The notes under the pieces: model-generated
The model's input: the letters and a program-made list of their open reading frames with translations, nothing else
What the model was told of the DNA's origin: nothing
The model's database searches: none
Shown: in pieces, positions 29,032 through 42,413 of the stretch
Layout of the letters: each line of letters opens with the position of its first letter
Numbering within the stretch: position 1 is the first letter of the stretch
Program-made: the position numbers and the translations under genes
NCBI GenBank assembly: GCA_021324945.1
Contig: JAJPID010000065.1
Location: forward strand, 1-64,000
DNA length: 64,000 bases
Origin: Lysobacterales bacterium
Lineage (GTDB): Bacteria; Pseudomonadota; Gammaproteobacteria; Xanthomonadales; Rhodanobacteraceae
Reading direction: 5' to 3'

Positions 29032-29562
29032 CTATAACGCTGCTTGAGGCATTTTGCGCAACTTGGAATCGTCGTAGCCCAACTGCGCCACACGCGTAGC
29101 GATCTTCTTGTAGTCGGATTGCGAAATGTTCGGGGTGCGGGCAATCACCCATACGTAATCGCGCTTGTCGCGCGCCACGATCGCCTCGCTATAGTCGGTG
29201 TTCAGATAGGCCACGATGTATTGCAGCTTGATCGGTCCGAAGACCCGCACACCCCATACGCCGTTGCCGGTTCCATCGCGCACGTAAGCTGTCGCGTGGG
29301 TTCGCTTGCTCGGTCCGTTGAAGCCGCCTTCGTGGAAACTCAGGGAAGTGCGGATCGTGCCATCAGGCTGCAACGTGTAGGTTTCGATCGCGTTGTAGGC
29401 GTTCTTCTCGTAACGGGTAGGAATGGCTGCGACCACGTACCACTTGCCCATGAAACGTGACAGATCGACATGCGGTACCGGCTCGATCGCGGACAGGGGG
29501 GTGGCGGCGACCGCAGAGGTAATCAGCGCCAATCCGCAAAGCGATAAATCAAGAACGCGCAT
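29032..29562 (-). CDS. Lipocalin (Blc-like), periplasmic
   Basis: A 176-residue lipocalin with a secretory signal (LSLCGLALITSAVAATPLSA) and no clear lipobox Cys. The calycin signature is DLSRFMGKWYVVAAIPTRYEKNAYNAIETYTL, and the C-terminal part has IVARDKRDYVWVIARTPNIS, as in Blc. Blc proteins bind fatty acids or lysophospholipids and respond to envelope stress. GAGGAA lies six bases before the ATG. It is the last gene of the eight-gene lipid operon. A second lipocalin gene flanks the other end of that operon (36498-37088) and shares most motifs. Confidence 0.88.
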   Translation of the reverse strand: MRVLDLSLCGLALITSAVAATPLSAIEPVPHVDLSRFMGKWYVVAAIPTRYEKNAYNAIETYTLQPDGTIRTSLSFHEGGFNGPSKRTHATAYVRDGTGNGVWGVRVFGPIKLQYIVAYLNTDYSEAIVARDKRDYVWVIARTPNISQSDYKKIATRVAQLGYDDSKLRKMPQAAL

Positions 29563-29593
29563 GAACAATTCCTCGCAGGCTCGCGTCGCTGGT

Positions 29594-30676
29594 TTACGGT
29601 CGCACAAACCGATGATGCGCCACCACCCACTCGCTGCCGTCCGCATATCCGAACAATTCCGCGCACGACATCCAGAACATGCGCCAGCGCTGGAACCAGA
29701 GGTTCGCGCGATCGCCATAAGCGGCTCGAAGCACGCTCATTACCGCGCTTTTCCTCTGGTCTTGATTGGCCAGCCAATGATTGGCGCTGCGCTGATAATG
29801 CGTACCGTCGATCAACCAGCTACGTTCGATTTCCAACCCACGCTGGAAGTGCAACAGCGTGTCGACCGACGGCATGAGTCCGCCCGTGAAGAAATGCCGG
29901 CCCAGCCAGTTGCCTGAGCCCTCTGTCTCGAATGGATACATCAGTTCCGTGTGCGCAAAGATATGGACGAACAGCTTGCCGCCGGGTTTCAACCAGTCTG
30001 CGATGCGCTGCATCAGGATGTCGTAATTGCGCATGTGTTCGAACATTTCCACCGATACGCAACGATCGAATTGCCCGGGTTCCAGGGTGAGCACGTTCAC
30101 GTCGCAGGTGATCACACGCACGTTGGAAATGCCGCGCCTGTCGCATTGTGATTCGATGTATTGGCGCTGGCCGCGCGAATTCGAGATCGCGGTGATGGTC
30201 GCCGCCGGATAATGTTCGGCCATCCAAAGCGTGAGAGAACCCCAGCCGCAACCGAGTTCAAGAATGTTCTGGCCATCGGCCAGCTCCGCGCGCTCGGCGT
30301 ATAACGCCAGCATGGCTTCTTCGGCCTGGGCCAACGTTTCGTCCCCGCGCGGGTAGTGACAGCAAGAGTATTTCAACCGCGGGCCGAGGCAGAGTTCGAA
30401 GAATTTTGCAGGCAGTTCGTAGTGTTGCGCGTTGGCAGCTTCCGTATCGATTGCGACGGGACTGCGTCGCAACGCATCGATGCGCCGCTCGAATCGCTCG
30501 GTTTGAGCTTCCAGTCCACCGGCACGTTCCTCGCTCAGGCGCTGCGCACACATCCGTCGGATGCCCATGCGCAGCAGCGGATCAGGAATCAGTCCACGCT
30601 CGGCCATGCCGAGCAGGCCCGGCGCGGCGCGATCCCGCGGTAGTTCCCGCGCCTCACCCATGGCAATGGAATTCAT
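29594..30676 (-). CDS. SAM-dependent methyltransferase of the CFA synthase family
   Basis: A 360-residue class I methyltransferase related to cyclopropane-fatty-acid synthases and coclaurine-type methyltransferases. The N-terminal HYELPAKFFELCLGPRLKYSCCHYPRGDETLAQAEEAML matches the family entry region; the SAM site is ILELGCGWGSLTLWMAEHYP. It is quite different from the other CFA-family gene in the operon (32021-33280), so the two should not be redundant: one may cyclopropanate and the other methylate acyl chains. GAGGAG precedes the ATG at 30676. It lies 11 bases after the DUF1295 gene and 31 before the lipocalin. Confidence 0.85.
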   Translation of the reverse strand: MNSIAMGEARELPRDRAAPGLLGMAERGLIPDPLLRMGIRRMCAQRLSEERAGGLEAQTERFERRIDALRRSPVAIDTEAANAQHYELPAKFFELCLGPRLKYSCCHYPRGDETLAQAEEAMLALYAERAELADGQNILELGCGWGSLTLWMAEHYPAATITAISNSRGQRQYIESQCDRRGISNVRVITCDVNVLTLEPGQFDRCVSVEMFEHMRNYDILMQRIADWLKPGGKLFVHIFAHTELMYPFETEGSGNWLGRHFFTGGLMPSVDTLLHFQRGLEIERSWLIDGTHYQRSANHWLANQDQRKSAVMSVLRAAYGDRANLWFQRWRMFWMSCAELFGYADGSEWVVAHHRFVRP

Positions 30677-30687
30677 GATTTTGCTCC

Positions 30688-31473
30688 TCACCTCACGGGT
30701 TGTTTTGGAAACCACGGAATCAAAACTGATGTGCTTTGCTGATACGCGCGATAGTCGTCACCGCGGGTGCGCAACGCTTGCATCTCGGTCCAGGGAATGC
30801 CGGTAAACCAGCGCAGGAAGGCGTACATCGCCACTGGGCCGACCCAAGTCAGCCCCCACACCGGCGAACTTGCGGCGAAGGCTACATAAGCGAACCAGTG
30901 CAGCCATTCAAAGAAGTAGTTGGGATGTCGCGAATACCGCCACAATCCGACTCGGCAGACTTTCGCGCGATTGGCCGCATCGGCACGAAACCGCCGCAAC
31001 TGTCGATCGGCGATCGTTTCGCCGATCACGCTGAGTAACCAAATCGCGCCACCCACGACGAGCCAAAAAGCATTTGTTCGAGGCGTGCGTGCCACTGCCA
31101 GAAACGGCAACGCGAACAACACGATCACTACGGTCTGTGCCTGGAAGAAAATGAAGAACTTCCATTGCGCGGACCCTTGCCAGTGGCGGCGCATGGCCTG
31201 ATAGCGGCCGTCCTCCGGATCGTGGCGCACGCGCGCGAACAGATGCGATGCCAGACGCAAACTCCACAGTCCACCGGCAAGCGCGACCGCGATGCGCGGC
31301 CACATCTCGCCGTCTTCCAGTATTGCCATCAGCAGCGCCCCGATTCCGAGTCCGGCCGCCCACAATGCGTCGACGATCGTGGCGTTGCTGCGCGTGCGCT
31401 GCCACCACCAACCCGCGGCCATCATCGCAATGCTGATGAGCCACAGCCACAACAACGGCAACCACGAGTTCAC
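30688..31473 (-). CDS. DUF1295 membrane protein (steroid reductase-like)
   Basis: A 261-residue polytopic membrane protein of the DUF1295 family, which resembles the C-terminal domain of 3-oxo-5-alpha-steroid 4-dehydrogenases. The family box GLWRYSRHPNYFFEWLHW is present near residue 175, with hydrophobic segments before and after, and a C-terminal WTEMQALRTRGDDYRAYQQSTSVLIPW. It probably reduces or isomerises a lipid, using NAD(P)H. The start is the GTG at 31473, overlapping the DUF2878 stop as GTGA; a longer upstream reading is only a shadow of that gene. Confidence 0.85.
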   Translation of the reverse strand: MNSWLPLLWLWLISIAMMAAGWWWQRTRSNATIVDALWAAGLGIGALLMAILEDGEMWPRIAVALAGGLWSLRLASHLFARVRHDPEDGRYQAMRRHWQGSAQWKFFIFFQAQTVVIVLFALPFLAVARTPRTNAFWLVVGGAIWLLSVIGETIADRQLRRFRADAANRAKVCRVGLWRYSRHPNYFFEWLHWFAYVAFAASSPVWGLTWVGPVAMYAFLRWFTGIPWTEMQALRTRGDDYRAYQQSTSVLIPWFPKQPVR

Positions 31474-32024
31474 GGCGAACTTCCGTGCGGCAAAACGGTT
31501 CCGCGCGGTATGTCCCGCACGTGCGACCAGCGACGGGCCAGCGCTGTGAGCGTTGGCAAAGCGATGGCCCAACCGATTCCCAGTGCCAGCAACGTACGCC
31601 ACGTCGGCGGCGCGAGCACCACCGCATGCAGGCGCGCTGCGGCGAGGAAAGAAAGCGGGCCGCCGATTGCGCCGAACGAGGCGGCGGTCCACGGCCGGCC
31701 GTGCAAGTAGCCAAACAACGGCAGGATTGTCAAGGCGAAGGCCACCCACACCGCCATGAGCCAGGCCGGAATGACGGCGAGCGGCCACGGCGACGCGTAA
31801 CGGATCAGGCCAGACTGCACCCAGACGAAATCCAGTGCACTACCGAGCAGCAGCGCGATTCCGATGAGTCGCAAGTCGATGCCGCGTCGGGTCGACACAC
31901 CCAGCCGCCATGCGATGAATACGGCGGCGGCAAGCAGGCCCGGCAATGTCGACCCACGCCCCGCGCCGATCACCGCGATGAACCACACGGCTTGGTAAGC
32001 GGCGAGGATGATCCAGAACATCAT
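31470..32024 (-). CDS. DUF2878 membrane protein
   Basis: A 184-residue membrane protein with about six hydrophobic segments, matching the DUF2878 family that travels with cyclopropane-fatty-acid synthase and DUF1365 genes. Recognisable stretches are SALDFVWVQSGLIRYASPWPLAVIPAWLMAVWVAFA and PLFGYLHGRPWTAASFGAIGGPLSFLAAARL. The ATG at 32024 overlaps the cfa stop as ATGA. Function is unknown; context places it in membrane-lipid remodelling. Confidence 0.83.
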   Translation of the reverse strand: MMFWIILAAYQAVWFIAVIGAGRGSTLPGLLAAAVFIAWRLGVSTRRGIDLRLIGIALLLGSALDFVWVQSGLIRYASPWPLAVIPAWLMAVWVAFALTILPLFGYLHGRPWTAASFGAIGGPLSFLAAARLHAVVLAPPTWRTLLALGIGWAIALPTLTALARRWSHVRDIPRGTVLPHGSSP

Positions 32025-33280
32025 GACATGGCCTCGGCGCGACGCCAGCCTGGCCTGGCCAGCAGCAAATGCGAGACGCCGATCGAGCGTTCGCGGAATC
32101 CGCCCTCGCAATAGGCCAGATAAAACTCCCACATGCGAATGAAAGGTTCGTCGTAACCCAGAGCGCGTACCCGATCCAGTTTCGTCATGAATCGCTCGCG
32201 CCAGGCACGCAAGGTGCGCGCGTAGGAATCACCGAAATCCGCTTGAGCGATCAATGCGAGATCACAGACGCGCGACTTGGCGGCCAGCATGGCGCTGAGC
32301 GAAGGGATGAAACTGCCGGGAAATACGTGGCGTTTGATGAAATCGACCGACTTGCACGCTCGCGCGTAGCGGTGGTCCTCGATCGTGATGGCCTGAATCA
32401 GGGCCTGACCTTCAGGGGTCAGCAGAGCACCCACTTTACGGAAGTATTCGTCCAGATATTCGGCGCCGATCGCCTCGATCATTTCGATCGAAACCAGTTT
32501 GTCATAGGTGCCTTCGAGATCGCGATAATCCCTCAACAGCACCTTGATGCGATCCTGCAGCCCGGCTTGCGCCACGCGCTCGCTTGCCAGCGCGTGTTGT
32601 TCGCGCGAAATCGTGGTGGTGGTGACATGACAGCCATAGTGCTTGGCCGCGTACAAGGCAAAACCGCCCCAGCCGGTGCCAATCTCGATCACCCGATCAT
32701 CGGCCTTCAGATCGAGCTTGCGACAGATCGTGTCGAGCTTGCGGGTGGAGGCCTGCTCGAGTGTGTCGTCCGCGTCGGACCAGATCGCCGACGAATACAT
32801 CAGATCGCTCGACAGGAACAGCTTGAAGAACTCGTTGCCCAGATCGTAATGCGCGGCGATATTCCGGCGCGCGCCGCTACGCGTATTGCGCTGCAGCGCG
32901 TGCCAGACCCGCATCGCAATGCCGCCAAGGCGTGCCAACCCTGTCTCCATGCCATCGAGCAGATCGCGATTGCGTACCAGCAACTGCACCAGCGCGACGA
33001 GATCGTCGCAACGCCATGAGCCCTCCATGTACGCCTCACCGGCTCCGACACTGCCATTGCTGGCGATGGCGCGGTAGAACGCCGGATCAAGTACATCGAT
33101 GCGCACGCGCAAATCGCCGGATGCTTCCCCCAATTCGACAACGCCCAACGCGTCGCGCAAGACCAGTTGCCCGTGCCGCACTCCGCGCACCTGCGCGATC
33201 AGGCGTCCGCGCAGGAGACGATCGAGGCTGCCGAACTCACCCCGCAGCTGATCAACTTCGAGATCGACGATGGCGTTCAT
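32021..33280 (-). CDS. cfa: Cyclopropane-fatty-acyl-phospholipid synthase
   Basis: A 419-residue CFA synthase, which adds a methylene group from S-adenosylmethionine across double bonds of phospholipid acyl chains in place. The N-terminal lipid-binding domain (1-120) is followed by the catalytic domain: AAHYDLGNEFFKLFLSSDLMYSSAIW, SAM site VIEIGTGWGGFALYAAKHYG, bicarbonate/active-site region SIEMIEAIGAEYLDEYF, and VDFIKRHVFPGSFIPS. It overlaps DUF1365 upstream and DUF2878 downstream by four bases each. The family member in such clusters sometimes makes methylated rather than cyclopropane chains. Confidence 0.92.
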   Translation of the reverse strand: MNAIVDLEVDQLRGEFGSLDRLLRGRLIAQVRGVRHGQLVLRDALGVVELGEASGDLRVRIDVLDPAFYRAIASNGSVGAGEAYMEGSWRCDDLVALVQLLVRNRDLLDGMETGLARLGGIAMRVWHALQRNTRSGARRNIAAHYDLGNEFFKLFLSSDLMYSSAIWSDADDTLEQASTRKLDTICRKLDLKADDRVIEIGTGWGGFALYAAKHYGCHVTTTTISREQHALASERVAQAGLQDRIKVLLRDYRDLEGTYDKLVSIEMIEAIGAEYLDEYFRKVGALLTPEGQALIQAITIEDHRYARACKSVDFIKRHVFPGSFIPSLSAMLAAKSRVCDLALIAQADFGDSYARTLRAWRERFMTKLDRVRALGYDEPFIRMWEFYLAYCEGGFRERSIGVSHLLLARPGWRRAEAMS

Positions 33281-34107
33281 GAGGGTACTTTGCTGGCTGG
33301 ATGGTCATACACCGGATTGCCTTTCAACCACAGGCGCAGTGCCTGCCAGTAGATCGTGCCGATCACCTGTGTGGTCATGAGTGGATAACGCCACAGCACG
33401 CGCGCAAGCGAGAACCCATTCAGCGGTCGACGCTGCAGGTGTAGATCCGCATCGAATTCCCGCTCATCGCCGCGCTTCACGTCCATGTGTACCTGCAAGG
33501 TTTCACCGGGAACGGTGAAGCGCCAATCGTAATGACGATCCATCGGCATGAAAGGCGAGACGTGGAAGGCTTTGGGGAATGTCCAGCGCAAGGCACGGCC
33601 ATGACGCTGCGCGCTCTCCAGGGGCAGGACATGCGCATGGCGTTCTTTCCACGGCGTGTTGGTGATTTCCGCGACGATACAAACCAGGCTCACTCCATCT
33701 TCGGCGAAGCAGTAGTAAAAGCTCACCGGGTTGAACACAAACCCGAAATAGCGCAGATGGGTCAGCAATCGAATCGGTCCCAGCGGACGCCTTCCGGCGA
33801 CCTGCTCGACGCGATGTCGCACCGCTTCGGAGAGCGGTACTTTCGCAGGACCCAGATAGTCCGTACGCCGGAATTCGGCCACGTTGCGACCTTGGGATGA
33901 CCACAGCCAGCGCTTGGCGAACAGGCTCTCGATTTCGTCCAGGTCTAGATACAGTTGTGCCAGGCGAAACGAAAACGCGTGCGGATGCGGGGCGTACCTG
34001 CGATGCCGCACCCTCCCCTCATATACGGCACTCGCCAGCGCAGCCGTACACGCATCGGACCTCGCTTGCGGCTGCCAGACATCGCGTTTTTGCGCTACGG
34101 CGCTCAT
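33277..34107 (-). CDS. DUF1365 domain protein
   Basis: A 276-residue DUF1365 protein. Visible marks: YEGRVRHRRYAPHPHAFSFRLAQLYLDLDEI, then LLTHLRYFGFVFNPVSFYYCF and the C-terminal WRYPLMTTQVIGTIYWQALRLWLKG. This family is almost always found between an FAD-dependent amine-oxidase-like gene and a CFA synthase, as here, and is thought to act in the same lipid pathway. The ATG at 34107 overlaps the stop of the FAD gene (ATGA). Confidence 0.9.
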   Translation of the reverse strand: MSAVAQKRDVWQPQARSDACTAALASAVYEGRVRHRRYAPHPHAFSFRLAQLYLDLDEIESLFAKRWLWSSQGRNVAEFRRTDYLGPAKVPLSEAVRHRVEQVAGRRPLGPIRLLTHLRYFGFVFNPVSFYYCFAEDGVSLVCIVAEITNTPWKERHAHVLPLESAQRHGRALRWTFPKAFHVSPFMPMDRHYDWRFTVPGETLQVHMDVKRGDEREFDADLHLQRRPLNGFSLARVLWRYPLMTTQVIGTIYWQALRLWLKGNPVYDHPASKVPS

Positions 34108-35378
34108 GCAGCGAGTTCCCGGGCCTGTTCGAACGTCGAACCGCGCTTTCCGATGGAGCGTGCCACTTCCATCGCCGAGCGCATGCCATCCTCGTGAAAT
34201 CCGAACCCCCAATACGCGCCGGCGAACCAGGTGCGTCGCTTCCCTTGGATTTCCGCTTTGCGCCGCTGCGCGGCGAAGGCGGCCTCGTCATACACCGGAT
34301 GGTGGTAGCGCATGCGGCGCAGGATCTTTTTCGGGTCGATCGCATGCGTGCGATTGAGCGTCACCACGAATGGTTCCGCGGAATCGATGCTTTGCAGAAA
34401 ATTCATGCAATAACTGACGGTGCAGGTCTGTTGGGGATTACGCGGCACGAATGCATTCCAGGCAGCCCAGGCCTTGCGACGCCGGGGCAACAACGAGGCG
34501 TCGGTGTGCAGCACGACTTCGTTGGGCTGATAGCGGATCGCGCCGAGAATCTCGCGTTCATCGTTGCCCGCATCGCGCAACAGTGTCAGTGCCTGATCGC
34601 TGTGGCAGGCCAGCACGACGTGATCGAAGCGCTCGGTGCCGGCCGCGCTGCACAGTTCGATGCCTTCCGCATCGCGTCGGATTTCGCGTACGGGGCAGGC
34701 AAGTCGCTCGCCTACGCGCCAGCACGCTCGCATGGCGCGGATATATGTAGCCGACCCACCACGCACCACGCACCACTGCGGACGGCCGCTGATCTGCAAC
34801 ATTTGATGGTTGGCCATGAACTGCACCAGATAGCGTGCGGGAAACTGCAAGATCTCCTTCGCTGGAGAAGACCACAGCGCCGACGCCATCGGCACCAGGT
34901 GCTGATCACGGAATGCGTCGCCGTAAGCGCGCTCGGCCAGATATTCTCCCAACGTCGGACCGGACTCGCCGGTTTCCAGCAAGGCAGGCGCTTCACGATA
35001 GAAGCGCAGCAGATCGACCACCATTCCGTAAAACCGCGGTGACAGCAGATTGCGCCTCTGACAGAACAGCGTGTCCAGAGATGTCGCGCTGTATTCCAAT
35101 CCGCTCGCTTCGTCATGCACGGAGAAGCTCATCGTGGTCGGCTGCGAGTCAACTCGCAGTTCGTCCAGCATCGCAGTCAACAGCGGATAGTGTGTGCGGT
35201 TGTAGACGATGAAACCGGTATCGACCGCGTAACGCACACCCTGCAATTCGATGTCGTGCGTATGCGTGTGGCCACCGAGATAATCGTTCGCCTCGAACAA
35301 CGTGACATCGTGGCAGCGAGAAAGCTGCCACGCGCTGACCAGACCAGAGATTCCAGAGCCCACGACGGCGATACGCAC
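34104..35378 (-). CDS. FAD-dependent amine-oxidase-like oxidoreductase
   Basis: A 424-residue flavoprotein. The N-terminus is the Rossmann dinucleotide fold (RIAVVGSGISGLVSAWQLSR, then an acidic end at VTLFEAND), followed by GGHTHTHDIELQGVRYAVDTGFIVYN, a signature of the FAD oxidoreductases that partner with DUF1365 and CFA synthase. The C-terminal FAD motif is near GAYWGFGFHEDGMRSA. The likely start is a GTG at 35378 with GGAG eight bases upstream; a TTG at 35384 would overlap the desaturase stop. Relatives in alphaproteobacteria act in furan fatty-acid formation (Ufa proteins); that role here is inference. Confidence 0.88.
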   Translation of the reverse strand: MRIAVVGSGISGLVSAWQLSRCHDVTLFEANDYLGGHTHTHDIELQGVRYAVDTGFIVYNRTHYPLLTAMLDELRVDSQPTTMSFSVHDEASGLEYSATSLDTLFCQRRNLLSPRFYGMVVDLLRFYREAPALLETGESGPTLGEYLAERAYGDAFRDQHLVPMASALWSSPAKEILQFPARYLVQFMANHQMLQISGRPQWCVVRGGSATYIRAMRACWRVGERLACPVREIRRDAEGIELCSAAGTERFDHVVLACHSDQALTLLRDAGNDEREILGAIRYQPNEVVLHTDASLLPRRRKAWAAWNAFVPRNPQQTCTVSYCMNFLQSIDSAEPFVVTLNRTHAIDPKKILRRMRYHHPVYDEAAFAAQRRKAEIQGKRRTWFAGAYWGFGFHEDGMRSAMEVARSIGKRGSTFEQARELAA

Positions 35379-35380
35379 GG

Positions 35381-36349
35381 TCAATCTCCGGCCTTCTCGA
35401 GCACCCAGGCTGGTACGGGTTTCAGATCGTGTACTACCCCCAAGAGCGACAACAGTTTCAAGCCATACCAGGTCAGATCGATCTCGCCGGGACGAAATCC
35501 CTGCCGCGCAGAGCCAGGAAAGAAATGGTGGTTGTTGTGCCAGCCTTCGCCTAAGGTCAACAGCGCAAGCCAGAGATTGTTGCGGCTGTTGTCTTGCGTG
35601 TCGAACCGACGTTTCCCATAACGGTGCGCGAGCGAATTGATCGTCACCGAAGCGTGGAACAGCAGCACGGTCGATACAAAGAAGCCCCACGTCACCATCT
35701 GCGCACCGCTGGTGTGCAGGCCGGGCGAGACGTGGTGCAGGAGTACGCCCAATGCGTACAGAGAGATCGCCAGAAGCAGCGGTACCAGCGTGTCGTAACG
35801 ATCCAGCCAGCGCAGCTCCGGAAATTTCGCCAGGTCCGGTACCCGCTCAAAGTCGGTGCGGAATGCACGGGGAGTCAGGAACCAGCCCATGTGGCTCCAC
35901 AGAAAGCCGTACACGCCGGGCGCATGTGGATCGAGGTGGGTGTCGGCATTGCGGTGATGACTGCGATGATGTGCCGCCCACCACAGCGGCCCACGCTGAA
36001 CGCTGGCCGCGCCGAGCAGCGCGAACAAGAATTGCATCGGCCGTGACGCACGAAAGGTGCGGTGCGCGAAATAGCGGTGATAAAAACCCGTCAACGCAAA
36101 CATGCGCAGCACATAGAGCGCCGCCGCCGCGATCAGCGCGACCGGCGAAACGCCGACCCACGCAACCAGCAGACAGCCCAGGTGGAGCACGATGAACGGA
36201 ACCGCGCGCAGCCAGTCGATCCGGTCGGCACGCACGGCTGCGTTCTCTGCATCGACCGACGTATCGAACCACGCGCGCAGGCGCTGCAAGCGGCGTGGGC
36301 GTACCGTATCGGCGGACACGGACAATGATTCGGTGGGAGAGAGTGGCAT
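35381..36349 (-). CDS. Acyl-CoA/acyl-lipid delta-9-type fatty acid desaturase
   Basis: A 322-residue membrane di-iron desaturase. The three His boxes are HRYFAH, HRSHH and HNNHH, with about four membrane segments between them. GFLWSHMGWFLTPRAF and GEGWHNNHHFFPGSARQGFRPGEIDLTW are typical of the stearoyl-CoA-like family. It inserts double bonds aerobically and so supplies substrate for the two CFA-family enzymes downstream. It is the first gene of the eight-gene operon, two bases before the FAD gene, and has an ECF-type promoter 30-55 bases upstream. Confidence 0.92.
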   Translation of the reverse strand: MPLSPTESLSVSADTVRPRRLQRLRAWFDTSVDAENAAVRADRIDWLRAVPFIVLHLGCLLVAWVGVSPVALIAAAALYVLRMFALTGFYHRYFAHRTFRASRPMQFLFALLGAASVQRGPLWWAAHHRSHHRNADTHLDPHAPGVYGFLWSHMGWFLTPRAFRTDFERVPDLAKFPELRWLDRYDTLVPLLLAISLYALGVLLHHVSPGLHTSGAQMVTWGFFVSTVLLFHASVTINSLAHRYGKRRFDTQDNSRNNLWLALLTLGEGWHNNHHFFPGSARQGFRPGEIDLTWYGLKLLSLLGVVHDLKPVPAWVLEKAGD

Positions 36350-36378: not shown

Positions 36379-36404
36379 ATACGGATCAACGGCGCGCTTG
36401 GATG
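36379..36404 (-). promoter_or_regulatory. ECF-sigma-type promoter of the lipid operon
   Basis: On the minus strand CATCC (36404-36400) and CCGTAT (36384-36379) are 15 bases apart. The same two boxes with the same spacing occur on the plus strand 30 bases away. The pattern is close to SigK-type promoters (CATCC-N16-17-CCGAAT). Transcription would start about 23 bases before the desaturase ATG. Confidence 0.65.
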
Positions 36405-36433
36405 CAGTGGAATCGGGCCTCCGCATCGGGATG

Positions 36434-36459
36434 CATCCGGACCGGGCATTCGGCCGTAT
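36434..36459 (+). promoter_or_regulatory. ECF-sigma-type promoter of the lipocalin-tspO unit
   Basis: CATCC (36434-36438) and CCGTAT (36454-36459), 15 bases apart, form the plus-strand twin of the divergent promoter. Transcription would begin near 36466, about 32 bases before the lipocalin ATG. Confidence 0.65.
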
Positions 36460-36497: not shown

Positions 36498-37088
36498 ATG
36501 AAACAGTCGAGAGGCATCGCTGCAAGCTGTGGCGTTGCCCTGCTGACTCTCGGGATCGCCGCCTGTGCCGGCTCGGACAAAGCGCCGATCGCGGCGGTGC
36601 AGCAGGTGGATCTCTCCCGATATGCGGGACGCTGGTACGTGATTGGCGTGATCCCTACCCGTTTCGAGCGCGACGGCTACAACTCCGTGGAAACTTACAC
36701 GCTCGACAAGGATGGCCACATGTGCACGTGGTTCCATCTCCGCCAAGGCGGGTTCGATGGGCCCGTGAAGACCCTGAGATCGGTCGGTTATCCGGATTCC
36801 GCCAGCGGGAATGCGGTCTGGAGCGTGCACCTGTATGGCCTTTTGCGCCTGCAATATAAGATCGCGTGGCTGGCAGACGATTACAGCCGCGTGATCGTGG
36901 CCCGCGACAAGCGTGATTACGTCTGGATCATGGCGCGCATGCCGAAAATCGCGGATGCCGATTACGCCGCAATGGTCGATCGGGTCAACGGCATGGGCTA
37001 CGACATTTCGAAGCTGCGAAGGGTGCCGCAGCAATGGCCGGAACCGCCCACTGCACCAAAACTCAGCGAAAGCAATCCTTGCGATTGA
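36498..37088 (+). CDS. blc: Lipocalin lipoprotein (Blc-like)
   Basis: A 196-residue outer-membrane lipoprotein. The signal ends in a lipobox (LLTLGIAAC-AGS), and the lipocalin domain has DLSRYAGRWYVIGVIPTRFERDGYNSVETYTL and IVARDKRDYVWIMARMPKIADADY. AAGGAGG lies eight bases before the ATG, fixing a start far inside a longer open frame. It differs from the soluble lipocalin at 29032-29562 by the lipobox and a Pro-rich tail. It probably carries fatty acids or lysolipids released by membrane damage. Confidence 0.9.
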   Translation: MKQSRGIAASCGVALLTLGIAACAGSDKAPIAAVQQVDLSRYAGRWYVIGVIPTRFERDGYNSVETYTLDKDGHMCTWFHLRQGGFDGPVKTLRSVGYPDSASGNAVWSVHLYGLLRLQYKIAWLADDYSRVIVARDKRDYVWIMARMPKIADADYAAMVDRVNGMGYDISKLRRVPQQWPEPPTAPKLSESNPCD

Positions 37089-37144
37089 CACGGCATGCTC
37101 GTATCGGGTAAGTCCGTGCATGAGTCCACGTGTGGGAACTGCCC

Positions 37145-37633
37145 ATGAGCACATTGCGACAAATCGCCGGGTTGATTGGATGGCTGGTTCTCAGTTTCAT
37201 CGCGGGCCTGATCGGCGCGGTGGCTTCGATTCACGCGGCGAGCTTTTATGCAAGCCTGGCGCGCCCCGCGTGGGCACCGCCCGCATCCGTGTTCGGCCCG
37301 GTCTGGACCGTTTTGTACGCGCTGATGGGCGTGGCCGCGTGGCTGGTCTGGCGCGTCGGCGGATATGCATCTGCGAGCCGTGCACTGAATCTGTTCTTGA
37401 TCCAGTTGTCTTTGAACGCTTTGTGGAGTTGGTTGTTCTTCGGTTTCCACTGGGGCGCGGTCGCATTCGTGGATATTGTGTTGCTGTGGCTGCTGATCAC
37501 CCTCACCCTCGTTGCGTTCTGGCGCGTGCGCATCGCTGCCGGAGTGCTGCTTGTTCCGTATCTGTTGTGGGTGACCTTCGCCTCGGTATTGAACTTCGCA
37601 ACATGGCAGATGAATCCACAACTCCTGGGCTGA
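37145..37633 (+). CDS. tspO: TspO/MBR family protein
   Basis: A 162-residue five-helix membrane protein of the TspO (translocator protein) family. Marks: LARPAWAPPASVFGPVWTVLYALMGVAAWLVWR, NLFLIQLSLNALWSWLFFGFHWGAVAFVD and WVTFASVLNFATWQMN. TspO binds porphyrins and responds to light and oxygen in Rhodobacter. It follows the lipocalin by 56 bases without a separate promoter that I can see. Its place beside photolyase and lipid-repair genes fits a photo-oxidative stress role. Confidence 0.92.
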   Translation: MSTLRQIAGLIGWLVLSFIAGLIGAVASIHAASFYASLARPAWAPPASVFGPVWTVLYALMGVAAWLVWRVGGYASASRALNLFLIQLSLNALWSWLFFGFHWGAVAFVDIVLLWLLITLTLVAFWRVRIAAGVLLVPYLLWVTFASVLNFATWQMNPQLLG

Positions 37634-38300: not shown

Positions 38301-39716
38301 TCAAGCGGCGGTAGTTTTGACTTTTTCGTAAGCCTCCAACGCCGTCCGTCGGGACTCGCCCAGATCTGCAATCGGTTCTGGATAGCCACACGCGCGTAAC
38401 ATGGTTGGATCGAGCGACGGATCGAACAGCACTTCGGCCGGCACCTCCGCGAGTTCGGGCAACCACCGCCTCAAATATTTTGCGTCAGGATCGAACTTGC
38501 GCGCCTGCGTCAGTGGATTGAAAACACGGAAATAGGGCGCCGCATCCGCACCGGAACCGGCCACCCATTGCCAACCGAGCGTGTTATTCGCGAGATCGGC
38601 ATCCACCAGCGTGTCCCAGAACCAGCGCGCGCCGTAGAGCCAGTGTTGGCGCAAGTTCTTGGTGAGGAAACTCGCGACTACCATGCGCACACGGTTATGC
38701 ATCCAGCCCGTGGCCCACAGTTCGCGCATACCTGCGTCGACCAGCGGGATGCCGGTGCGCCCTCGCGTCCACGCTCCCAAAACGCTCGTGTCCTTGCGCG
38801 CCCAGGGAAACCCATCGAACTTGGGATTGAAATTCCGTGTGGGTGTTTGCGGGAAGTGATAAAGCAGGTGATGCGCGAATTCGCGCCAACCCAACTCGCG
38901 CAGGAACGGTTCAAGATCGAGGTGTTTGCGCTCCCGCGCACGTTGCTGCAAAGCGTGATGAATCTGGCGTGGCGTGATTTCACCGAAGTGCAGATGCGGC
39001 GAAAGCCGCGAGGTGCCATTGCGTGAAGGCAGATCACGGCCGCGCGCGTAATCCGCCAAGGCGTCGTCTGCAAAAAGCTCCAGCATCTCGCACGCTGCGG
39101 ATTCTCCGGGTTTCCAGGTTTGTTCGAGCCCCTGATCCCAGCGAATTTTTGGCAGCAATTGCAACGCATCCAGTGAAAGGCTGCCTTCGAGGTGTGCCCA
39201 TTGTTTCGGCCTGCCGGGCGGCAGTGGCGCTGCCGGTTCGATGCGCGTGCGCAACTTGCGCCAGAACGGCGTGAATACGCGATAGGGTTGATCCTCGGCG
39301 GTGGAAATTTGCCAAGGTTCGCACCAGAGATTCCCGGCATGACTCTCCGCGGCAATGCCGCGAGCGCGTAACGCAGTCTTGATCCTGGTGTCGCGCGCGA
39401 TGATTGCCGGCTCGTACAAGCGGTTCCAGTACACCGCCGCGGCACCGGTGCCTTCGACGAGGCGAATCAATTCCGCGAGACTCTCGCCGCGCGCAATAAA
39501 CAGCTCGCCGTTCGATTTCTTCAGTTGCGTGGAGAGCGCGCCGAGCGAATGGTGCAACCACCAGCGGCTGGCACCACCTGGTTGCCACGGCGCCTCCTCT
39601 TCCGGTGCGTGCACATAAACGGGCAGCACGCGTGTGTGCGCAGCGCAAGCTGCAAGCAAGGCAGGATTGTCCGCAATTCGCAGATCGCGCCGCAGCCAGA
39701 CCAGCGCGGTGCTCAT
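38301..39716 (-). CDS. phrB: Deoxyribodipyrimidine photolyase
   Basis: A 471-residue class I photolyase, which splits UV-induced cyclobutane pyrimidine dimers using blue light and FADH. The N-terminal antenna domain starts STALVWLRRDLRIADNPALLAAC. The FAD domain has WATGWMHNRVRMVVASFLTK and WDTLVDADLANNTLGWQWVAGSGADAAPYFRVFNP. Ten bases separate it from the anti-sigma gene, so it is the third gene of the sigma operon. That ties DNA photorepair directly to this sigma factor. Confidence 0.96.
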   Translation of the reverse strand: MSTALVWLRRDLRIADNPALLAACAAHTRVLPVYVHAPEEEAPWQPGGASRWWLHHSLGALSTQLKKSNGELFIARGESLAELIRLVEGTGAAAVYWNRLYEPAIIARDTRIKTALRARGIAAESHAGNLWCEPWQISTAEDQPYRVFTPFWRKLRTRIEPAAPLPPGRPKQWAHLEGSLSLDALQLLPKIRWDQGLEQTWKPGESAACEMLELFADDALADYARGRDLPSRNGTSRLSPHLHFGEITPRQIHHALQQRARERKHLDLEPFLRELGWREFAHHLLYHFPQTPTRNFNPKFDGFPWARKDTSVLGAWTRGRTGIPLVDAGMRELWATGWMHNRVRMVVASFLTKNLRQHWLYGARWFWDTLVDADLANNTLGWQWVAGSGADAAPYFRVFNPLTQARKFDPDAKYLRRWLPELAEVPAEVLFDPSLDPTMLRACGYPEPIADLGESRRTALEAYEKVKTTAA

Positions 39717-39725
39717 CGCAGACGT

Positions 39726-40523
39726 TCAGCCTGTTGCGTGGACGCGCTCAACGCGTGCAAGCATCGCAACCGGATTGCCACCGCTTTCTGAGGCGGCGCC
39801 GATCGCACCCTTTGCGATTACCGGCCCGGTCGGCTGACCGCTGGGCGAGCCACCCGGCGGTTCCACCGAAACCGCCAGCGCCGCGGTTGGCCCGAGCCGC
39901 GCCAGCAACGCCGAATCGAGCCGGATCGCGGTGGGTGCACCGGCCGCGATCATGCCGACCGCGATCGGCTTCTGACCGGCCGGAATGAGCCACAGCTCGG
40001 GGGCACGTCCTGCGGGTAAGGCCTGCGGTTTGGCCGGCACGACCACCATGCGCGCGTGTTGCAGATCCATGGTGGCTGTCCAGCCCACCTGGCCGTTGTC
40101 CTGGATGATGGTCGAAGCCATGTACGACACGTGCGGCGCGTTCGGAGCCAGGTTGCGCGACAACAAGACGGCCAACGCGATGACGCAGGCTGCTGCGACC
40201 GCGCTGGTGCCGAGTGCAAGCCAGCGCCAGAACGAAAGACTTTCGCCAAGGCGGCGCGATGACGTCTCGGCCAAGTGGGATCGCGTCTCGGCCAAGTTGA
40301 GCGAAGCGCGTATCCGCGTCCACATGTAATCAGCCGGTGTGACCGACGGAAAATCTTCGGCCAGCGGCGTCAGGCGCTCCTGCCAGCGCGCAACCTCTAC
40401 TGCTGCGCGCTCGTCCTCCCGCACTTCGCTTTCGACGGCGACGCGCTCGTCGGCCTCCAGCACGCCGAGTGCGTACTCGGCGTAGCGCAGGTCTTCACGG
40501 TCTTCGTCGTACGTTGCGTTCAC
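39726..40523 (-). CDS. RskA-type membrane anti-sigma factor
   Basis: A 265-residue anti-sigma factor. The cytoplasmic part (1-97) begins DLRYAEYALGVLEADERVAVE, as in the RskA/SigK-type family; one membrane helix follows (about 98-122) and the periplasmic domain (PELWLIPAGQKPIAVGMIAAG) matches the RskA C-terminal domain. The cytoplasmic part has no Cys and no HxxxCxxC zinc motif, so it is not a ChrR/ZAS-type protein. A short tandem duplication gives LAETRSHLAETSS just before the helix. It starts four bases after the sigma gene. Confidence 0.9.
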   Translation of the reverse strand: MNATYDEDREDLRYAEYALGVLEADERVAVESEVREDERAAVEVARWQERLTPLAEDFPSVTPADYMWTRIRASLNLAETRSHLAETSSRRLGESLSFWRWLALGTSAVAAACVIALAVLLSRNLAPNAPHVSYMASTIIQDNGQVGWTATMDLQHARMVVVPAKPQALPAGRAPELWLIPAGQKPIAVGMIAAGAPTAIRLDSALLARLGPTAALAVSVEPPGGSPSGQPTGPVIAKGAIGAASESGGNPVAMLARVERVHATG

Positions 40524-40527
40524 GGAT

Positions 40528-41103
40528 CTAAATTGGATGTTCGAGACAGGTGCGCAACCGGATAAGGCTGCGCCGGATCCAGCTCTTCATGGTAGCCAGC
40601 GGCACGCCGCCCTGAGTGGCCAGTTCGTTATACGTGCGACCCGAGAAAAAGGCTGCACGCACCGCCGCCTTCTGCCGCGGCTCCAATTTATCCAGGCAAT
40701 GTTCCAGTCTTTGCCGTTGCTCGCTGCTGTGGGCGTGGGCGGCCGGGGAAGGCTGATCGTCGACCAACTCGCGCGCGGTCGCCTCGTCCAGCGGGATTTC
40801 ACCAGGACGACGCAACCGATCGATGGAACGGTTGCGTGTCAGGGTAATCAACCAGGTCATTGCCGAAGCGCGGCTGGAATCGAAATCGCCTGCGCGCTGC
40901 CAGACGGTGGTGAAGACTTCCTGCAACACATCCTCAGCTTCCTGGCGCGCACGCAACATCGTCAGGCAAATGCCAAACAGCCTGGGTGACGTCTGCTCGT
41001 AAAGTTTGGCGAATGCGCGCTGGTCGCCACGCGCGCTGGCCGCGAGCAGTCTTGCCAGTTCCGAAGGTTCCCCGGATTGCGTACCTCCCATAGCCACTAG
41101 CAT
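40528..41103 (-). CDS. ECF-type RNA polymerase sigma factor
   Basis: An ECF sigma factor of about 191 residues. Region 2 is visible (DQRAFAKLYEQTSPRLFGICLTMLRARQEAEDVLQEVFTTVWQRA) and region 4 near the end (LEPRQKAAVRAAFFSGRTYNELATQGGVPLATMKSWIRRSLIRLRTCLE). It is most like the SigK/SigL-type group that pairs with RskA anti-sigma factors. The ATG at 41103 or 41091 may be the start. It heads the sigma/anti-sigma/photolyase operon and probably recognises the CATCC-N15-CCGTAT promoters found in this block. Confidence 0.92.
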   Translation of the reverse strand: MLVAMGGTQSGEPSELARLLAASARGDQRAFAKLYEQTSPRLFGICLTMLRARQEAEDVLQEVFTTVWQRAGDFDSSRASAMTWLITLTRNRSIDRLRRPGEIPLDEATARELVDDQPSPAAHAHSSEQRQRLEHCLDKLEPRQKAAVRAAFFSGRTYNELATQGGVPLATMKSWIRRSLIRLRTCLEHPI

Positions 41104-41170: not shown

Positions 41171-41403
41171 AAACACCGAAAAGGTCTCACTCGCTGGTGC
41201 ATCCGAAGTCGGTTGCTTGCGTAGCAATCCCGTACGACTCCAAATCCGGCCGAAGAGGACGTACACGCGACCGCTAAGTCAACTTCACGGTGCCTTGGCA
41301 TCCGTACCTGCGCCGCGATCACACGGTCCCATATCCCACCCCCGGCATCAGCGTCGGCCTGCTCGCAGACGTTGCAATGAGGCCCACGACCGTTCCTAAC
41401 CTG

Positions 41404-41429
41404 CATCCACGAAAGTCTTTGCAACGTAT
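41404..41429 (+). promoter_or_regulatory. ECF-type promoter of the hydrolase-MAPEG unit
   Basis: CATCC (41404-41408) and ACGTAT (41424-41429), again 15 bases apart, lie about 40 bases before the hydrolase start. Eleven of the expected motif bases are scored and ten match the 36.4-kb pair. The rest of the 365-base gap between the sigma gene and this site holds no gene that I can see. Confidence 0.6.
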
Positions 41430-41468
41430 GTTGCTTGTCGCCACCCGAACGCGGAGGTCTTGAGCACC

Positions 41469-42413
41469 GTGCAAAACAGATCTGCGTTGCGTCGCTGCCT
41501 GGTGACGTTGCCGGCGGGATTGCTTGCGTTGTTCCTGGGCGGCTGCCAGGCCGTCCTGTTTCATGCCGTCAACGCCGCTTCAAGTGACGGCGGGCTGAGT
41601 GAGCATCGAAACATCGAGTTCGATCCCTCGCACCACCTGCGGCTGGACATGTATGCACCACGCGACGCGCGTCATCTGCCGGTGGTGGTGTTCTTCTATG
41701 GCGGCAGTTGGCAGGACGGCAAGCGTCAGTGGTATCACTGGATGGGCGAAACACTGGCGCGGCACGGGCTGGTCGTGGCCATCTCCGATTACCGCAAATA
41801 TCCGCAAGTGCGTATGGACGGGTTCATGACCGATGCGGCCAACGCCGTGGCGTGGGTGCACGCGCATGCCGCTGACTACGGCGGCGATCCGAAAGTGCTA
41901 TTCCTGATGGGACATTCGGCCGGCGCACACATCGGCGCCTTGCTGGCCACAGACAAGCGATGGCTAAGCAGCGTGGGCATGAAACCGCAAGATCTTGCGG
42001 GCTTCATTGGCTTGGCCGGACCCTACGACTTTCTGCCGCTGACCGACCCCGCCTTCGTCGGGATGTTCGGGGCCACGCCGCAAGCGCAGGCCCACTCACA
42101 ACCGGTCAACTTCGTCGACGGCGACGAACCGCCGATGCTGCTGTTGCAGGGAACGTCGGATGATCGCGTGAAGCCCCGCAATGCTCGTTCACTGGCCGAC
42201 CGTCTGCACAGTCTGGGCGAACCGGTGCAGATTCACTTGTATTCTGATGTCGGTCATGCCCGCCTTTTGCTCTCATTCTCACGTCCTTGGCGCGGCGATT
42301 GCACGGCCTTGCGCGACACCCTCAATTTCATACGCGACCAAACGTCCCTCGTCGTACGGCGCGATGATGGCGAGGGCACCGCGAAGCTGACGGCGATGAG
42401 CTGCGGACCGTGA
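41469..42413 (+). CDS. Alpha/beta-hydrolase lipoprotein
   Basis: A 314-residue hydrolase with a lipoprotein signal (LVTLPAGLLALFLGGC). The fold is that of BD-FAE/esterase-lipase relatives: oxyanion loop VVVFFYGGSWQDGKR, nucleophile GHSAGAH, Asp in GTSDDRVKP and His in YSDVGHARL. GGAGG precedes two possible starts: GTG at 41469 (11 bases) and TTG at 41460 (too close). It should face the periplasm and might clear oxidised or released acyl esters. An ECF-type promoter links it to the sigma regulon. Confidence 0.87.
   Translation: MQNRSALRRCLVTLPAGLLALFLGGCQAVLFHAVNAASSDGGLSEHRNIEFDPSHHLRLDMYAPRDARHLPVVVFFYGGSWQDGKRQWYHWMGETLARHGLVVAISDYRKYPQVRMDGFMTDAANAVAWVHAHAADYGGDPKVLFLMGHSAGAHIGALLATDKRWLSSVGMKPQDLAGFIGLAGPYDFLPLTDPAFVGMFGATPQAQAHSQPVNFVDGDEPPMLLLQGTSDDRVKPRNARSLADRLHSLGEPVQIHLYSDVGHARLLLSFSRPWRGDCTALRDTLNFIRDQTSLVVRRDDGEGTAKLTAMSCGP

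Follow-up and report, generated by a model that had tools for sequence, protein, structure and literature searches.

A desaturase-headed eight-gene operon in a Lysobacterales bacterium as a probable variant of the furan fatty acid (Ufa) pathway

The furan fatty acid (Ufa) pathway has been described in R. sphaeroides and R. palustris, for which the activities and order of UfaM, UfaD, and UfaO are established (PMC7380195). UfaM methylates cis-vaccenate in phospholipids, UfaD, a flavin adenine dinucleotide (FAD) enzyme, adds a second double bond, and the DUF1365 protein UfaO incorporates oxygen derived from O2; FufM of R. palustris (RPA0924) methylates the furan, including when the enzyme is made cell-free, yielding dimethyl furans (PMC7380195). 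A Stenotrophomonas maltophilia gene cluster is tabulated as acyl-CoA desaturase, FAD enzyme, hypothetical protein, CfaS2, two inner-membrane hypothetical proteins, CfaS1, and lipocalin (PMC11832516). Nine genes there, including these eight, were up 165- to 697-fold in a chrR mutant (the eight, 165- to 507-fold; one RNA sequencing run), and the induction falls back when rpoEc is removed; deleting the nine genes in the chrR mutant almost undoes its changes in menadione tolerance and ceftazidime susceptibility, with no such effect in the wild type (PMC11832516). The authors infer cyclopropane synthesis, and the word "furan" occurs 0 times in their text (PMC11832516). Here we describe an eight-gene operon in a 64,000-nucleotide stretch of a Lysobacterales bacterium of the family Rhodanobacteraceae (contig JAJPID010000065.1, assembly GCA_021324945.1; hereafter the window). 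Judged by homology, it is probably a self-contained, presumably stress-induced line for making dimethyl furan fatty acids on existing phospholipid chains, and most likely a new variant of the Ufa pathway, with a matching gene order already in print under another reading. Among the products that a first-pass annotation of the window had suggested, a methylated furan fatty acid is the most likely one, by relatedness to the Ufa proteins.

The eight genes form a minus-strand run from 36349 to 29032, separated by gaps of 2, -4, -4, -4, -4, 11, and 31 bases (Table 1). All family names (FA_desaturase, amine-oxidase/NAD_binding_8, DUF1365, CMAS, DUF2878, DUF1295, CMAS, Lipocalin_2) lie above curated Pfam cut-offs; the genes, order, strand, and gaps given by the first-pass annotation proved exact to the base, and Pfam backs each family name it used. 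DUF1365 was found in 94 of 299 genomes sampled across the phylum and in 140 of 200 sampled from the window's order; within the family it occurs in 20 genomes, and 14 further listed genomes lack it. We mapped 140 DUF1365 loci: 71 from the order, the window among them, out of 140 order genomes carrying the gene; 33 out of 48 in the same class; and 36 out of 41 in other classes. One duplicate piece was excluded. The family is covered in full with its 20 loci, and elsewhere the selection was meant to span genera. The desaturase (DES), UfaD, UfaO, UfaM, DUF1295, and FufM genes are co-oriented in a single locus in all 20 family genomes that carry DUF1365, counting the window's, and in 28 of the 51 mapped loci from other families of the order; with DUF2878 and the lipocalin added, the set is complete in 17/20 and 22/51 loci, respectively. 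Because the same co-oriented set recurs across family and order, the arrangement is not due to chance. A UfaD homologue accompanies DUF1365 in 138 of the 140 mapped loci (co-oriented in 136) and UfaM in 128, whereas FufM is found in 20/20 family loci and 47/51 other order loci but in only 1/33 loci of the same class and 4/36 of other classes; the UfaM and FufM counts use profiles built from the tree described below.

The reference for the Ufa and FufM comparisons was Rhodopseudomonas pseudopalustris DSM 123, found by a scan of genome contigs, not the tested proteins of R. sphaeroides or R. palustris CGA009. Against its ufa cluster, the window UfaD is 43% identical (421 columns), UfaO 34% (259 columns), and UfaM 37%; the Pfam families of the three homologues agree with those described in PMC7380195, and the UfaD-UfaO-UfaM order is that of R. 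pseudopalustris (and of R. palustris by locus numbers). The relation to UfaM, UfaD, and UfaO noted at first pass is thus borne out at 34-43% identity, but the roles had to be reassigned. Desaturation in the known pathway is the work of UfaD, not of a di-iron desaturase, and the FAD protein that matches UfaD had been given no pathway step; DUF1365 had been given no role and is the homologue of the furan-forming UfaO; and the two cyclopropane fatty acid (CFA)-like proteins had been read as two double-bond methylators, whereas the first is a UfaM and the second is FufM-like, FufM methylating the ring once the furan is complete. The FAD and DUF1365 proteins, whose grouping was checked, matched UfaD and UfaO of R. 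pseudopalustris, not unrelated families.

The first CFA-like protein was placed in a tree of 258 such proteins rooted on the window FufM, after 27 of 285 sequences had been removed by length. It groups with R. pseudopalustris UfaM in a 177-member clade (support 0.928), whereas the genome's own Cfa pairs with E. coli Cfa outside that clade (support 0.994), the contrast set consisting of three Cfa-type sequences only. The genome's own Cfa, encoded on another contig, shares 57% identity with E. coli Cfa and reaches 596.5 bits with NCBIfam PRK11705 (cut-off 400); because it passes this curated cut-off, ordinary cyclopropane synthesis is already covered. The window UfaM stays below it at 282.3 bits, as well as below the cut-offs of other Cfa models, and R. 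pseudopalustris UfaM scores 293 bits. All 176 aligned members of the UfaM clade carry E236 and Q266 (E. coli numbering); E. coli Cfa and the own Cfa have G at 236 and H at 266, and the remaining 79 tree members have E236 in 78 and H266 in 79, the odd one being Cfa-type by tree. E. coli Cfa coordinates bicarbonate through E239, H266, and Y317 (PMC11387697), and the window UfaM has E, Q, and Y there, one of the three being altered. As far as sequence goes, the E236/Q266 signature marks the UfaM clade and not a chemistry, and the ligand change argues down Cfa membership of the window protein, not the possibility of cyclopropane chemistry; the first CFA-like protein is by this evidence a UfaM rather than a Cfa.

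Several results weigh against a furan product and are best taken together. Furan fatty acids are regarded as scavengers, whereas the S. maltophilia regulon had no effect on singlet oxygen tolerance (PMC11832516), a result that does not speak for a simple scavenger role. Identities of UfaO and UfaM to the reference are modest (34% and 37%); the window UfaM shows much the same identity to E. coli Cfa (37%), though at 214 bits versus 274 bits for R. pseudopalustris UfaM, and E. coli Cfa (6bqc) is its best PDB relative. Q266 had to be rejected as proof of non-cyclopropane chemistry, since cotton cyclopropane synthases, too, carry Q at position 266 (PMC3132707). In two of the 51 order loci from other families, no UfaD was recognised in the vicinity of DUF1365, and the idea that the desaturase stands in for a missing FabA was rejected, desaturase loci having FabA in 21 cases and lacking it in 39. 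The competing explanation proposed by the S. maltophilia authors for the matching gene order is that it makes cyclopropane fatty acids and changes membrane permeability (PMC11832516). It draws on the points about UfaM just listed, on the match of both methyltransferases to PF02353, on the published CfaS1/CfaS2 annotation (PMC11832516), and on Halomonas UfaM, which reportedly also came with cyclic fatty acids when overexpressed in E. coli, although a host that has a cfa gene itself is poorly suited to testing this. We consider it unlikely for the window, where a separate E. coli-type Cfa exceeds the curated cut-off, the first enzyme belongs to the UfaM clade and sits beside UfaD and UfaO homologues that cyclopropane synthesis does not need, and the second methyltransferase groups with FufM.

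For UfaO, no PDB sequence match was found at an E value of 0.1. Its structural model (predicted local distance difference test [pLDDT] of 88.4) is a beta barrel with weak structure matches only: the best Foldseek E value is 8.2e-3 (a nitrobindin mutant), and the best VIA Z score is 7.5 to a spirocyclase, with nitrobindins near 7. The matches being this weak, neither haem nor another cofactor can be named. The accompanying structure alignment held the window protein and 47 of the 76 UfaO proteins of the named loci, a set of 80 of which some end early at contig ends.

The second CFA-like enzyme is 48% identical (339 columns) to a FufM homologue encoded elsewhere in the R. pseudopalustris genome than the ufa cluster, the next best match there being far weaker (E value of 9e-20 versus 1.5e-100); we take this homologue to be the orthologue of the tested RPA0924. 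It is only 28% identical to the window UfaM and to the genome's own Cfa, over shorter stretches. Its best PDB relative is coclaurine N-methyltransferase (6gkv, E value of 1.2e-69), and FufM has been reported as 37.87% identical to Arabidopsis AT4G33110 (PMC10940516). These plant relatives would suit a monomethyl furan product, with the second methyltransferase using another substrate, such as an amine. Such an outcome is improbable in our judgment: the R. pseudopalustris FufM homologue, at 48% identity, ranks its PDB relatives in the same way, placing plant N-methyltransferases above cyclopropane synthases, and likewise adjoins a DUF1295 gene, R. palustris FufM was shown to methylate the furan (PMC7380195), and fufM lies in the operon in 20/20 family loci. 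By sequence, the second CFA-like protein is closest to FufM, not to UfaM or Cfa, and furan methylation is its predicted activity by homology.

The R. pseudopalustris FufM gene directly follows a DUF1295 gene whose product is 38% identical to the window DUF1295, and the two genes are neighbors on three Acinetobacter plasmids as well (see below). All 13 of the 80 named loci with FufM contain DUF1295, including those of Mesorhizobium, Neorhizobium, Variovorax, and Paracidovorax, and six named loci carry DUF1295 without FufM. In Chlamydomonas, singlet oxygen co-induces a DUF1295 gene with CFA1, CFA2, and a DUF1365 gene (PMC4067076, Table 5). The window DUF1295 gave no PDB sequence match at an E value of 0.001. 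Its model (pLDDT of 93.7) matches the delta-14 sterol reductase 4quv_B with a VIA Z score of 14.8 (root mean square deviation [RMSD] of 4.0, 235 aligned) and the 5-alpha-reductases 7c83 (Z score of 13.6, RMSD of 4.1, 206 aligned) and 7bw1 (Z score of 12.9, RMSD of 3.9, 198 aligned); ICMT (4a2n) follows at 11.8 and the first unrelated row at 5.6, and the best Foldseek E value is only 3.3e-3. The structure alignment covered the window protein and 17 of the 19 DUF1295 proteins of the named loci. The modeled fold is sterol-reductase/5-alpha-reductase-like, and since ICMT, which uses S-adenosylmethionine, shares it, the fold does not fix the cofactor. DUF1295 is not needed for ring methylation, because cell-free FufM methylates the furan (PMC7380195).

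The desaturase at the head of the operon matches two acyl-CoA desaturases in the PDB, 4ymk (E value of 4.7e-28) and 4zyo, and is 54.5% identical to the product of a cyanobacterial plasmid gene annotated desC1. Its histidine boxes are HRYFAH, HRSHH, and HNNHH, whose histidines are conserved in 59 or 60 of the 60 order members. Assignment as DesA was rejected (85.8 bits against the NF049918 cut-off of 400; another gene of the genome reaches 562). By sequence, DES is an SCD/DesC-type desaturase, and a delta-9 position is plausible. It immediately precedes ufaD, in the same orientation, in 60 of the 71 mapped order loci (20/20 in the family, 40/51 elsewhere), whereas the same placement was seen in 0/69 mapped loci outside the order (0/33 of the same class, 0/36 of other classes); two of the 33 same-class loci have a desaturase-like frame further from ufaD, and the profile found no desaturase in the 80 named loci. 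The first-pass annotation had called a desaturase heading such a set a notable addition. The addition is real and conserved but not unique, being the rule in the mapped order loci and already printed in the S. maltophilia operon (PMC11832516).

One may ask whether the desaturase feeds UfaM or is a general delta-9 enzyme that is merely co-regulated. Double bonds have other sources in these bacteria, with a DesA-type desaturase elsewhere in the genome and FabA in 58 of the 140 order genomes with DUF1365, and 11 of the 71 mapped order loci have no desaturase (three of these lie on contigs under 8 kb). On the other side are its adjacency and co-orientation in 60 loci, the 2-base gap in the window, and its carriage along with the pathway on Acinetobacter plasmids (see below). 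We regard mere co-regulation as doubtful, though a serious contender, and favor the supply of UfaM. According to TIGR01749, no FabA is encoded in the window's genome (best score, 35.6 against 238 bits), and 7 of the 11 desaturase-less loci have FabA (Fisher P = 0.098; genomes not independent). Across the 200 order genomes, both DUF1365 and FabA occur in 58, DUF1365 only in 82, FabA only in 38, and neither in 22 (P = 0.005, somewhat exclusive; genomes not independent); 8 of the 96 FabA genomes have matches below the curated cut-off.

Put together, the operon would work as follows. Once the regulon is on, DES would supply, fast and at a fixed position, the cis double bond for UfaM, which by homology to the tested enzymes would methylate and shift it; UfaD would add the second, conjugated double bond, UfaO would insert oxygen from O2 and thereby close the furan, and FufM would methylate the ring. 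A delta-9 DES would shift the ring by two carbons, giving 7M5/7M7 and then, after FufM, 7D5/7D7, compared with 9D5 of R. palustris. DUF1295 may act on the furan lipid or its oxidation product, for which we propose a reductive role, and the lipocalin may handle released or oxidized lipid. Transcription would be driven by an ECF (extracytoplasmic function) sigma factor, probably the adjoining one, from TGCATC-N17-CGTA. Furan acids act as quenchers of reactive oxygen, and on opening they yield reactive ene-diones. A more speculative extension, to which we give little credence, is a renewable membrane antioxidant, in which DUF1295, whose fold resembles that of enzymes reducing conjugated ketones of this kind, would convert the ene-dione by reduction into a 1,4-diketone that recloses to the furan or is removed by the lipocalin, and the desaturase would set the furan position, making a class unlike the alphaproteobacterial one.

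The motif TGCATC-N16-18-CGTA occurs at the head of the desaturase gene in 17/20 family loci and 5/13 loci of a second family but in 0/27 elsewhere in the order. Relative to the position aligned with the window's start codon, it begins 52 to 61 bases upstream at 12 of these 17 loci and 168 upstream at one; at the other four it begins 1 to 27 bases downstream, which would require a later start. In one round of shuffled upstream regions, any spaced word appeared in at most 3/20, and a scan of the other family loci (379 kb) gave 36 motif hits versus 0 to 4 for four control patterns. The window holds 5 matches of the N16-18 form (0.37 expected): one ahead of the operon, one ahead of the divergent lipocalin, two ahead of a gene at 41460, and a fifth of no obvious significance; none of the five points at the sigma factor gene itself. 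With fixed spacing and one mismatch allowed, 9 matches against 4.77 expected are not clearly above chance, 6 of 100 shuffles giving as many. Genome-wide, the exact motif has 9 sites, 3 of them within the window, versus 1 for the reversed control. The anti-sigma factor is not of the SigmaE-ChrR type, RskA_C being its only match; the shared motif still suggests an ECF regulon, and the neighboring ECF sigma factor is the likely reader of the motif. The span given at first pass leaves out likely co-regulated neighbors, namely the second lipocalin with TspO, the photolyase, the anti-sigma factor, and the ECF sigma factor.

The two motif copies before the gene at 41460, at 41402-41428 (+) and 41198-41223 (+), lie upstream of an alpha/beta-hydrolase-lipoprotein-like frame (41460-42413, +; by eye), which they would add to the regulon, and an exact motif outside the window (C43:40091-40117, +), with a spacer closely like that of the operon promoter, may mark a further member. 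A pyridoxamine-phosphate-oxidase-like protein (PF16242; 37749-38252, +) is encoded downstream of TspO and perhaps co-transcribed with the second lipocalin. A gene for a 790-amino-acid peroxidase-family protein (PF00141; 43045-45417, -) lies near the oxidative-stress block.

Table 1. Features of the operon and its regulatory neighborhood (window positions; gene coordinates of the eight operon genes include stop codons)
Feature	Position	Strand	Basis
Lipocalin, 176 amino acids (aa), apparent signal peptide without lipobox (by eye)	29032..29562	-	PF08212 (Lipocalin_2) 129.6 bits
FufM homologue, methyltransferase of the plant N-methyltransferase/FufM branch, 360 aa	29594..30676	-	PF02353 (CMAS)
DUF1295 membrane protein, 261 aa, GTG start	30688..31473	-	PF06966 213.6 bits; PF02544 (Steroid_dh) weaker, 39.7 bits
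DUF2878 membrane protein, 184 aa	31470..32024	-	PF11086 118.4 bits
UfaM homologue, CFA-like acyl methyltransferase, 419 aa	32021..33280	-	PF02353
UfaO homologue, DUF1365 protein, 276 aa	33277..34107	-	PF07103 278.7 bits
UfaD homologue, FAD-dependent oxidoreductase, 424 aa, GTG start	34104..35378	-	PF01593/PF13450
DES, SCD/DesC-type fatty acid desaturase, 322 aa, operon head	35381..36349	-	PF00487 71.1 bits
Putative ECF-sigma promoter of the operon, TGCATC-N17-CGTA	36380..36406	-	begins 57 bases before DES start; 17/20 family loci
Second motif copy, points at divergent lipocalin	36432..36458	+	motif scan
Second lipocalin, lipobox by eye, divergent from operon	36498..37088	+	PF08212 120.6 bits
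TspO/MBR protein, downstream of second lipocalin	37130..37633	+	PF03073 148.2 bits
DNA photolyase/cryptochrome family protein	38301..39716	-	PF03441 and PF00875
Anti-sigma factor, RskA type	39726..40523	-	PF10099 (RskA_C) 73.8 bits, sole Pfam match
ECF sigma factor	40528..41103	-	PF04542 and PF08281

Searches of 72,556 plasmid records found the desaturase with FufM 4.2 kb downstream on 7, all from Acinetobacter and at least 54% identical. Three such plasmid operons carry desaturase, FAD enzyme, DUF1365, CFA-like, DUF1295, and methyltransferase genes, with a lipocalin annotated in front in two; none has an annotated DUF2878, and an essential role of DUF2878 was rejected on that ground. The plasmids are mobilizable, and the operon lies beside a sensor kinase and, in 2/3, near a photolyase, which points to a mobile pathway. 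In five Acinetobacter plasmid records the match to the desaturase is split in two (74% coverage), possibly reflecting a broken gene. An Azoarcus plasmid has the ufa core with genes for a MerR regulator, a chalcone isomerase-like protein, a major facilitator superfamily transporter, DUF3833, a short-chain dehydrogenase, and an NTF2-like protein; papers on Aeromonas and Pseudomonas also name short-chain dehydrogenase (and NTF2-like) genes.

If the proposed pathway holds, a chemically unexplained S. maltophilia stress operon (smlt2375-2367; superoxide and beta-lactam phenotypes; PMC11832516) gains a concrete biosynthetic proposal: a published operon read as cyclopropane-making may instead make furan fatty acids, natural antioxidants. 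A search of the open-access literature found no paper with both "furan fatty acid" and "Stenotrophomonas," and FufM is mentioned there by just two relevant papers. The window also offers a compact, one-operon source of homologues for all four tested furan fatty acid enzymes, and it links DUF1295 and a dedicated desaturase to the furan pathway, the desaturase-ufa-fufM set being found on mobilizable plasmids as well.

Compared with the Ufa pathway of R. sphaeroides and R. palustris (PMC7380195), the window has homologues of all four enzymes, with DUF1295 and FufM paired as in R. pseudopalustris; it differs in being a single operon where the known systems occupy two or more loci, in being headed by a di-iron desaturase, in including DUF2878 and a lipocalin, and in the RskA-type anti-sigma factor adjoining the operon, where R. 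sphaeroides has ChrR. S. maltophilia smlt2374-smlt2367 has, by its published table, the matching eight genes in matching order under ECF-sigma control (PMC11832516), a comparison made without aligning its sequences to the window; its hypothetical proteins presumably correspond to DUF1365, DUF2878, and DUF1295, and, unlike the window, it has an extra periplasmic first gene (smlt2375) and a ChrR anti-sigma factor (PMC11832516). The operon of Acinetobacter plasmid p1AsACE is 27% identical to the window in the lipocalin, 55% in the desaturase, 42% in UfaD, 33% in UfaO, 51% in UfaM, 39% in DUF1295, and 51% in FufM, and the Acinetobacter operon differs in lying on mobilizable plasmids, in having no annotated DUF2878, in placing the lipocalin (where annotated) first, and in adjoining a sensor kinase. 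The light-induced phrB-ufaM cluster of Pseudomonas brings photolyase, FAD oxidoreductase, and UfaM together, as near the window operon, but is under LitR/LOV control and includes a short-chain dehydrogenase, and the passages describing it name no desaturase or FufM (PMC9758184).

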